Position numbers and translations under genes: made by a program
From: Flavobacteriaceae bacterium CG2_30_34_30
GTDB taxonomy: Bacteria; Bacteroidota; Bacteroidia; Flavobacteriales; Flavobacteriaceae
Reading direction: 5' to 3'
Length of the DNA stretch: 64,000 nucleotides
Assembly (NCBI GenBank): GCA_001873105.1
Contig: MNYN01000041.1
Span: 1 to 64,000, forward strand
Notes under the pieces: model-generated
Database searches by the model: none
Told to the model about the DNA's origin: nothing
What the model saw: the letters and a program-made list of their open reading frames with translations, nothing else
In this document: piece by piece, positions 19,617-46,824 of the stretch
How the letters are laid out: every line of letters begins with the position of its first letter
Position numbering within the stretch: the first letter of the stretch is position 1

Positions 19617-20204
19617 ATGATTAAAGGTATTTACATCCTATTGGCTTGCTTGTTTTTAGTGTCTTGCAGCACCTATAAAAACAAGAAAAGCATCCCATAT
19701 GCCGAAAATAAAATTAAAAATGAAACGGTTGTTACTCCTAAAAAAAATGCAGAAATTAAAAACCCCAGACCTAATGAAATTGTATCCTATGGAGAAATGG
19801 AAGAAACGGAAAAACCAATTGATTTAAAAGTAAACAACATCATTGGCATTGCTAAATCCTTTCACGGCACCCGATATAAGTTTGCTGGCACCACAAGTGC
19901 AGGAATGGATTGTTCCGGATTAGTATATACAGCTTTCAAGGAAGAAGACATTGTATTGCCTAGATCTTCAAGGGATATGTCCTCAAGAGGTAAAAAAATT
20001 AATTTTCGCGAAATAAGCAAAGGCGATCTTGTTTTTTTTAAAACAAATAGAAGCAAAAGCATTAATCACGTTGGTTTGGTAGTAGATGTTCTTCTCGGAA
20101 AAGTTTTATTTATTCACTCCACTACCTCGCAGGGCGTAATAATTTCTTCTTTAGATGAAAAATATTGGAACGAAAGTTTTGTAGAAGCGCGAAGAATTAT
20201 TTAA
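19617..20204 (+). CDS. NlpC/P60 (C40) family lipoprotein, putative cell-wall hydrolase
   Basis: Outer-envelope lipoprotein of 195 residues. The signal peptide ends in the lipobox FLVSC (Cys17). A Lys-rich linker (about 20-70) is followed by a C-terminal NlpC/P60 domain with catalytic Cys99 in MDCSGLVYTAF, His151 in INHVGLVVDV and a third polar residue His167 (FIHSTT). This triad hydrolyses gamma-D-Glu-diaminopimelate or related peptidoglycan peptide bonds. Its ATG abuts the lpxB stop, so translational coupling is likely. Family members such as Spr/MepS trim stem peptides during growth; the substrate here is inferred. Confidence 0.93.
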   Translation: MIKGIYILLACLFLVSCSTYKNKKSIPYAENKIKNETVVTPKKNAEIKNPRPNEIVSYGEMEETEKPIDLKVNNIIGIAKSFHGTRYKFAGTTSAGMDCSGLVYTAFKEEDIVLPRSSRDMSSRGKKINFREISKGDLVFFKTNRSKSINHVGLVVDVLLGKVLFIHSTTSQGVIISSLDEKYWNESFVEARRII

Positions 20205-20232
20205 AAAAACGTTAACCAAAACTAAAATTTTA

Positions 20233-20240
20233 TATATTTA
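20233..20240 (+). promoter_or_regulatory. Possible -7 element of the attenuated hydroxylase transcript
   Basis: TATATTTA, one mismatch to TAnnTTTG, lies 19 bases before the leader-peptide ATG. No TTG is seen at the expected distance upstream, so this is a weak call. A start of transcription around 20247 would place the whole leader peptide and both alternative hairpins in the mRNA. Confidence 0.3.
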
Positions 20241-20258
20241 CCGTATTAAACTATTAAA

Positions 20259-20321
20259 ATGAATTTTACAACAACATTATATTATTACTATCCTATTCTT
20301 ATATTAAGAGTCGGAACGTAA
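20259..20321 (+). CDS. Tyrosine-rich leader peptide (20 residues) of a transcription attenuator
   Basis: A short open frame, ATG to TAA, encodes MNFTTTLYYYYPILILRVGT. Four consecutive Tyr codons (TAT TAT TAC TAT, 20280-20291) are extremely unlikely by chance. They sit just before RNA segments able to form alternative hairpins and an intrinsic terminator. The gene downstream makes tyrosine. Leader peptides rich in the regulated amino acid are the established sensor of ribosome-stalling attenuation (trp, his, phe leaders). The reading frame is seen directly; its translation and function are inferred. It is too short for ordinary gene callers. Confidence 0.75.
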   Translation: MNFTTTLYYYYPILILRVGT

Positions 20322-20389
20322 TGTATTGCTAAAAACATAAAAAAACATTTACCCAAATCCCGGTTCTTTTTTAGAATCGGGATTTTTTT
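20292..20389 (+). promoter_or_regulatory. Tyr-responsive transcription attenuator (pause hairpin, antiterminator, terminator)
   Basis: Three mutually exclusive pairings can be drawn. Segment 1 (20292-20300, CCTATTCTT) pairs with segment 2 (20306-20314, AAGAGTCGG): 8 of 9 pairs with a 5-base loop. Segment 2 also pairs with segment 3 (20360-20368): nine pairs, two of them G-U. Segment 3 (20356-20367) pairs with segment 4 (20373-20384): a 12-bp stem with one G-U and a T5 loop, followed by seven T (20383-20389). A ribosome stalled at the Tyr codons would free segment 2 to form the antiterminator. A ribosome reaching the stop codon at 20319 would cover segment 2 and allow termination. This is the classic attenuator layout. 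Confidence 0.75.
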
Positions 20390-20414
20390 GTGCTTAAAAT
20401 TTAAAATAATTACT

Positions 20415-21140
20415 ATGATACAAAACATGAATTCTTACACCGAAGAAAACCAAAAAGTTTGGAATATGCTTTTTAACCGTCAATTTAAAAATCTGAAAAA
20501 AAAAGGAAGTAGTGATTATTTAAAGTGTCTAAAATCAATGCGACCTGTTTTAAATGATAATGAAATCCCTGATTTTAAAAAGATAAATTCATGGTTTGAA
20601 AGTCAAACTGGGTGGCAAATTGAAGTAGTCCCGGGGTTAATTCCTGTGGAGGATTTTTTTGAACTTCTATCGCAAAAGCGATTCTGTTCTTCTACTTGGT
20701 TACGGAATATAAAAAATCTGGATTATTTGGAAGAACCCGATATGTTTCACGATATTTTTGGGCATATTCCTCTATTAGCAAATCCAGTTTTTTCTGAATT
20801 TGTATATGCGTTTGGAAAACTAGGCAAACAGTTTATTCACAATAAAGAAAAATTAGTACAGTTGCAACGATTGTATTGGTTTACTATTGAATTTGGTATT
20901 ATAAAAGAAAAAGGCGTACATAAATCCTATGGAGCAGGAATTATCTCGTCATTTGGGGAGACCAATCAAATAGCCGAAGGTCGCGCAAATTTTATTCCCT
21001 TTGAAATAGAAACCATTTTGAACAAACCGTTTAGAACTGACGTGATGCAGGAAGATTATTTTGTCATTGAATCTCTTGCGCAACTCTTTGAATCGCTTCC
21101 GGAAGTTGAAAAATTATTTTTGAGTAACATATTGGTTTAA
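20415..21140 (+). CDS. phhA: Aromatic amino acid hydroxylase (phenylalanine 4-monooxygenase)
   Basis: Pterin-dependent, non-heme iron monooxygenase that converts L-phenylalanine to L-tyrosine; cytosolic. It is 241 residues, catalytic domain only, as usual in bacteria. The iron ligands are visible: His112 and His117 in FHDIFGHIPLL, and Glu159 in QRLYWFTIEFG. Substrate-pocket segments SYGAGIISSFGE follow. The start is ATG 20415 (MIQNMNSYTEENQ); an in-frame TTG at 20388 lies in the terminator tract and is rejected, and ATG 20427 is an alternative. No pterin-4a-carbinolamine dehydratase gene is adjacent. It is preceded by the Tyr-codon leader and terminator, which suggests expression rises when Tyr-tRNA is scarce. 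Phe specificity over Trp/Tyr is inferred from bacterial precedent and the leader. Confidence 0.92.
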   Translation: MIQNMNSYTEENQKVWNMLFNRQFKNLKKKGSSDYLKCLKSMRPVLNDNEIPDFKKINSWFESQTGWQIEVVPGLIPVEDFFELLSQKRFCSSTWLRNIKNLDYLEEPDMFHDIFGHIPLLANPVFSEFVYAFGKLGKQFIHNKEKLVQLQRLYWFTIEFGIIKEKGVHKSYGAGIISSFGETNQIAEGRANFIPFEIETILNKPFRTDVMQEDYFVIESLAQLFESLPEVEKLFLSNILV

Positions 21141-46710: not shown

Positions 46711-46784
46711 AGCTAATCCCGCTATCCGCTATATCTTTTTTTGCTCTAAAGAAGCAAAAAAAGGATGCCGCTGCTATCGGGGCT
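46711..46784. repeat. Intergenic hairpin repeat with GC-rich half-sites
   Basis: A central perfect 11-bp stem CTTTTTTTGCT (46735-46745) and AGCAAAAAAAG (46753-46763) encloses a 7-base loop. GC-rich half-sites flank it: CCCGCTATCCGC on the left, GCCGCTGCTATCGGGG on the right, with CCCG/CGGG able to pair. Very similar intergenic elements are familiar from flavobacterial genomes. It lies between the phosphorylase and arsM genes and may be a REP-type element or terminator. Confidence 0.6.
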
Positions 46785-46824
46785 AAAAATTGAAATATTT
46801 TTTAAACATAAATTAAAAATAATT

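Follow-up and report, generated by a model that had tools for sequence, protein, structure and literature searches.

The window analysed here, a 64,000-nt stretch of contig MNYN01000041.1 from Flavobacteriaceae bacterium CG2_30_34_30, carries a short open reading frame with a run of tyrosine codons ahead of an aromatic amino acid hydroxylase gene, which raises the question of whether transcription of that gene is governed by the supply of tyrosine. A sequence-only reading of the locus had proposed a complete ribosome-stalling attenuator. On the basis of its parts, their conservation and co-variation, their spacing and the modelled switching, we consider it highly probable that the leader acts by classical ribosome-mediated attenuation of transcription, with Tyr as the sensor codon and phenylalanine hydroxylase as the target. 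The locus comprises the following features:

19617-20204, forward strand: NlpC/P60-family gene, ending ~55 nt before the leader
20233-20240, forward strand: sigma-A-like -7 box TATATTTA, which differs from TAnnTTTG at one position; transcription is predicted to start near 20245
20259-20321, forward strand: leader ORF encoding MNFTTTLYYYYPILILRVGT, 20 codons, ATG at 20259 and TAA at 20319-20321; counterparts in related loci
20280-20291, forward strand: four Tyr codons (TAT TAT TAC TAT), the stall site predicted from the sequence and from the modelled probability of the 2:3 helix, P(2:3)
20292-20300, forward strand: core of segment 1, with an extended arm at 20275-20301; pairing with its own partner in relatives, z = -12.4
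20306-20314, forward strand: segment 2, partner of segment 1 (protection) or of segment 3 (antiterminator)
20355-20389, forward strand: intrinsic terminator, with the 3:4 hairpin at 20355-20385 and seven T at 20383-20389; 3:4 co-variation
20360-20368, forward strand: segment 3, the 5' arm of the terminator, partner of segment 2 or 4
20415-21140, forward strand: short phenylalanine 4-monooxygenase (NF008877, PF00351), the predicted controlled gene; alternative ATG at 20427

The product of 20415-21140 scored 255 bits against NF008877 (cut-off 247) and matched PF00351 with an E value of 6e-43; its best solved relatives were bacterial phenylalanine-4-hydroxylases, and FHDIFGHIPLL and YWFTIEFG are probably its iron-ligand motifs. 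Planktosalinus lacus was the nearest named relative of the window's genome having the hydroxylase gene. The 20-codon leader with four consecutive Tyr codons, as the sequence-only reading had it, could be read directly from the DNA; this short ORF is predicted to be translatable and encodes the regulated amino acid several times in succession. Across the whole genome there were 25 matches to TAYTAYTAYTAY, just one of which, the leader at 20259, lay in a compact ATG-started ORF preceding a terminator; this pattern revealed no second Tyr attenuator in the genome, although runs of three or fewer Tyr would escape it.

Segments 1 and 2 (20292-20300 with 20306-20314) formed eight of nine pairs, the exception being a U20294/C20312 mismatch, and in the minimum-energy fold the helix was lengthened in the same register (20275-20301 with 20305-20328), its first arm including the first two Tyr codons. 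The pause hairpin that had been postulated was therefore present where it had been placed, with one mismatch and in a longer form than described. The 2:3 antiterminator (20306-20314 with 20360-20368) had all nine pairs attributed to it, two of them G-U, and the 3:4 terminator with its run of seven T was likewise found between the leader ORF and the structural gene, the stem measuring 13 bp with one G-U. The fold of the leader as a whole had a z score of -4.6 relative to dinucleotide shuffles, none of 200 shuffles being equally stable. An Rfam search of positions 20200-20430 returned no family at the gathering score, and a relaxed threshold gave chance-like matches only, the best at the leader being PyrR (29.1 of 54 bits). 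Elsewhere in the window, a Flavo-1 RNA (RF01705), a Flavobacteriaceae motif of unknown function, was matched with 80 bits at 46711-46788 on the reverse strand.

A search limited to one genome per species identified 80 relatives of the hydroxylase, most of which had a Tyr-rich short ORF ~120-220 nt 5' of the hydroxylase and a strong terminator, mostly 10-60 nt 5' of it. Under fixed scoring rules (a terminator of -11 kcal/mol or below plus an ORF having three or more Tyr within six codons), both elements were found at 55 of 79 short-hydroxylase loci, at none of the 21 long-form (~590 aa) hydroxylase loci and at none of 127 other genes, while a few loci whose ORF had two Tyr, or whose terminator was split, were added on looser inspection. 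The conservation anticipated from the single locus was thus borne out, with Tyr runs at these 55 homologous loci and both the terminator and its T tract retained in homologues. Among residues clustered in the leaders, Tyr was the most frequent (55/79) and Leu the next (29/79). In the final set, 51 of 52 leaders started with ATG and both Tyr codons were in use (TAT 164, TAC 35); some related leaders had His, Trp or Cys interspersed among the Tyr codons. Given these comparative data, it appears very unlikely that the architecture arose by chance.

Carriers of the leader included Planktosalinus, Psychroflexus, Flavobacterium gelidilacus and Crocinitomicaceae (among them Fluviicola), as well as other Flavobacteriales, Saprospiraceae and one Chitinophagales MAG; none of the hydroxylase relatives in Balneolaceae had the leader architecture. 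When mapped on a tree of 90 hydroxylases, presence of the leader was strongly clustered (12 changes, compared with 26 in shuffles), which suggests that the leader is an old feature that has undergone several losses. A quick leader scan of a phylum-wide sample detected clear Tyr leaders outside the window's own family at loci L152 and L153; the terminator scan used for this sample was stricter than the main scan and overlooked known cases, such that its blanks carry no evidence. Two loci of the same family group as these, L156 and L158, had candidate leaders containing both Tyr and His codons (MNQTYHSYSHYHTSFWG and MNPTPRTYVHHSYHFLQ, respectively), located 5' of the hydroxylase match at 1501. 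A Fluviicola-type hydroxylase with a near-identical Fluviicola-type leader was also observed in CP034120.1 (L095), a record labelled Glaciecola amylolytica, a gammaproteobacterium; this record may be mislabelled or contaminated.

Co-variation of the helices was evaluated both on an alignment and independently of one. In a 49-row alignment, 7 of the 13 pairs of the 3:4 terminator showed changes on both sides, 87.5% of cells were paired, and the score was well above those of shuffles and slides; the 1:2 helix also scored above shuffles. The 2:3 helix scored slightly above shuffles on the fixed MAFFT alignment, and a one-column slide (-1) scored equally, a weakness that we attribute to segment 2 being misaligned by a single column in some of the rows. 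Because of this misalignment we adopted an alignment-free partner-swap test, in which a segment of each leader was paired with its own partner segment or with those of other loci. Own partners were favoured over swapped ones for all three helices (z = -12.4 for 1:2, -8.3 for 2:3 and -15.5 for 3:4), while the negative control, the Tyr region against segment 3, gave z = +0.4. When the loci were clustered down to 55% identity and each cluster was represented once (20 loci), z scores were -7.2 for 1:2, -5.4 for 2:3 (p = 0.0001), -10.3 for 3:4 and -0.1 for the control. In addition, 36 of 63 loci had a 2:3 duplex energy better than that of dinucleotide-shuffled spacers (p < 0.05). The compensatory changes foreseen for the three mutually exclusive stems were accordingly found in each of them by partner swapping, the 2:3 signal being weak on the fixed alignment.

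The position of segment 2 relative to the Tyr codons was also constrained, its first paired base lying 11-17 nt beyond the last Tyr codon at nearly all loci (median, 14 nt; 5-95% range, 12-19 nt; 6-33 nt in shuffles). If an E. coli-like footprint is assumed, segment 2 would start roughly where the front of a ribosome comes to lie when the last Tyr codon occupies its A site. We modelled switching by folding the nascent RNA up to, and excluding, segment 4, with ribosome-covered bases held unpaired. With a ribosome placed on the last Tyr codon, the probability of the modelled antiterminator exceeded 0.5 at all 52 loci; moving the ribosome to the stop codon left 3 of the 52 above this value, and omitting it left 13. 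The full modelled switch occurred in 5% of shuffled-spacer controls. For the window's own leader, scanning the A site along the ORF gave P(2:3) values of 0.74-0.99 on the Tyr codons and the Pro and Ile codons that follow them, ≤0.02 before the Tyr codons and ≤0.04 after the Pro and Ile codons. Thus, in the model and with the same assumed footprint, a Tyr-stalled ribosome covered segment 1 only and a ribosome at the stop codon covered segment 2, so that spacing and nascent-RNA folding agreed with the earlier proposal that the positions suit the classic ribosome-stalling mechanism.

Attenuation requires that transcripts begin upstream of the leader, and the promoter evidence was consistent with this at related loci. 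At 38 of 51 loci, against an expectation of 2.3, a TAnnTTTG box was present no more than 50 nt 5' of the leader ATG, and because of this placement transcripts most likely start 5' of the attenuator there. The box of the window itself is imperfect, which counts against the attenuator reading. In ~14 of the 38 loci (leaders of L033-L110) the box ended exactly 4 nt before the ATG. According to a study of Flavobacterium psychrophilum (PMC9723704), the flavobacterial sigma-A box TAnnTTTG sits at -12 to -5, and leaderless mRNAs make up only 5.5% in that species. With the box at -12 to -5, many of the leader-peptide mRNAs would be leaderless or nearly so.

The steps leading from tyrosine shortage to read-through can be envisaged as follows. 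RNA polymerase would start just 5' of 20259 and a ribosome would begin the leader peptide. With ample charged tRNA-Tyr, the ribosome would reach the stop codon and cover segment 2, whereupon the 3:4 terminator would form and transcription would end near 20389. Under a shortage of charged tRNA-Tyr, the ribosome would halt on the four Tyr codons and cover segment 1, so that segments 2 and 3 could pair; the hydroxylase would then be transcribed and make Tyr from Phe. Were no ribosome present, the 1:2 hairpin would hide segment 2 and termination would be expected.

Among other explanations, the one that survives best, improbable as we judge it, retains an attenuator and replaces tRNA-Tyr charging with another signal, whether translation speed, another amino acid, or arrest by a nascent peptide that senses free tyrosine or a drug. 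Nascent-peptide sensing is known elsewhere (TnaC), and the His, Trp or Cys codons found among the Tyr codons of some leaders would be compatible with such a signal, as would the Pro codon after the Tyr run of the window, where, as at the codon that follows it, a modelled stall also switches the structure. Arrest peptides usually depend on fixed residues, however, whereas the residues flanking the Tyr run were not conserved as a peptide motif; moreover, Tyr was the residue most often clustered, and the modelled stall windows were centred on the Tyr codons. It is far less credible that the hairpin is a mere terminator of the NlpC/P60-family gene and the short ORF incidental: that gene does lie on the same strand and close to the leader, yet at 25 of 50 loci the gene preceding the leader is encoded on the other strand and the leader and terminator are nonetheless kept, so serving an upstream gene cannot be the terminator's general role, and the Tyr run, the spacing of segment 2 and the promoter box would be left unexplained. 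The hairpin as the upstream gene's terminator was rejected on the grounds of these divergent upstream genes. Equally hard to sustain is a metabolite or tRNA riboswitch (e.g., a T-box) with an untranslated ORF, which would account for a structured leader and terminator before an amino-acid gene, but no Rfam family, amino-acid leaders and T-box included, reached its gathering score, and the alignment (mean column identity 49%) contained no conserved aptamer-like block, its conserved parts being the Tyr codons and the terminator.

Whether a tyrosine-responsive attenuator suits this gene depends on what the hydroxylase does, since a switch thrown by Tyr starvation is sensible only for a tyrosine-producing hydroxylase; the regulation would therefore reveal the role of the enzyme. 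Bacterial phenylalanine hydroxylase is usually regarded as a breakdown enzyme. In the window's genome (G000) and in G001 and G002, the members of its genus that carry the hydroxylase, neither prephenate dehydrogenase (PF02153) nor prephenate dehydratase (PF00800) was found, and because G001 and G002 are ~99% complete, missing sequence is an unlikely cause of this absence. Since neither enzyme was found, the hydroxylase is probably the only tyrosine route of the window's genome and these two congeners. Of the other members of the genus, G004 was without the hydroxylase and had both prephenate enzymes, and none of the three was found in G003. Chorismate synthase was present in all five genomes. 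G003 is possibly auxotrophic for Phe and Tyr, and its frame for 4-hydroxyphenylpyruvate dioxygenase (HPPD) is either split or interrupted by two stop codons.

In a set of 50 genomes carrying a related hydroxylase, prephenate dehydrogenase scored above the cut-off in 15 (12 full-length) and prephenate dehydratase was present in 24; for comparison, the dehydrogenase was found in 239 of 299 family members. Fluviicola-type genomes with an attenuated hydroxylase (e.g., L056, L061, L064, L076 and L089) had no matches to prephenate dehydrogenase or dehydratase, and this group and the window's genus likely lost the phenylalanine branch independently. Two observations count against the biosynthetic reading. 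Psychroflexus mostly keeps both prephenate dehydrogenase and dehydratase beside the attenuated hydroxylase, and HPPD occurs in all five genomes of the window's genus, because of which the hydroxylase could also feed tyrosine breakdown. The earlier assertion that the hydroxylase makes Tyr from Phe was therefore strengthened by the three carriers in which the TyrA and PheA families were not found, and tempered by Psychroflexus, which retains the normal tyrosine pathway. Hydroxylase-based tyrosine synthesis has genetic evidence in Dyella and Echinicola (PMC7311316), and our results support the GapMind proposal of such synthesis in some bacteria (PMC7311316) and extend it to many Bacteroidota without prephenate dehydrogenase.

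On balance we lean towards a broader reading, in which these leaders form a widespread and ancient Bacteroidota family of attenuators that sense tyrosine, with the hydroxylase fixed as the biosynthetic tyrosine route. The family would include lineages that are without the usual phenylalanine enzyme and, like animals, obtain tyrosine only from imported phenylalanine, and many of the leader peptides would be translated from mRNAs with little or no untranslated sequence before the ATG. The leader would also provide a tyrosine sensor ready for use in Bacteroidota, and a test case for how attenuation works where Shine-Dalgarno sites are not used.

The amino acids with established classical attenuators are Trp, Phe, His, Thr, Leu and Ile/Val. 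No tyrosine or hydroxylase attenuator was found in Rfam or in the searchable literature (subscription papers and supplements lay outside this scope), nor was a demonstrated natural tyrosine attenuator found in that literature, in agreement with the earlier statement that no description was known for a pterin-dependent hydroxylase. The leader would represent a new specificity (Tyr) and a new target (the hydroxylase) within a known mechanism. Attenuation, introduced in the sequence-only reading as familiar from Proteobacteria, is indeed known there and is not confined to them: in the same bacterial family as the window, a similar leader-peptide mechanism without an Rfam match has been suggested before amino-acid operons of F. 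psychrophilum, with structured 5' elements named for pheA and hisG, and the main text of that report names neither a hydroxylase nor a tyrosine leader (PMC9723704). Tyr-tRNA has likewise been proposed as the signal for aroF(-tyrA) of E. coli and Shewanella, a different gene in another phylum; attenuation by tRNA-Tyr appears there as a table entry citing Camakaris 1980 (PMC2659441) and is called hypothesised in PMC8632094, the passages of both papers on aroF presenting the proposal without a described Tyr-run leader. In Corynebacterium glutamicum, aroR-aroF also has an aromatic-residue leader (Phe-Tyr-Phe) before an aromatic pathway gene and is ribosome-mediated, but its target is DAHP synthase rather than a hydroxylase and it belongs to another phylum; this best-known candidate with Tyr codons was reported to respond to Phe limitation, Tyr availability having no effect (PMC4046766, PMC11802643). 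The closest likeness in construction is to E. coli pheA (pheL) and pheST, which likewise combine a leader peptide rich in the product amino acid with alternative 2:3 and 3:4 helices and an intrinsic terminator, and which also control an aromatic function (PMC11802643). In contrast to these, the hydroxylase leader has no Shine-Dalgarno site, lies behind a TAnnTTTG promoter in Bacteroidota, and senses Tyr rather than Phe to control a pterin-dependent hydroxylase.
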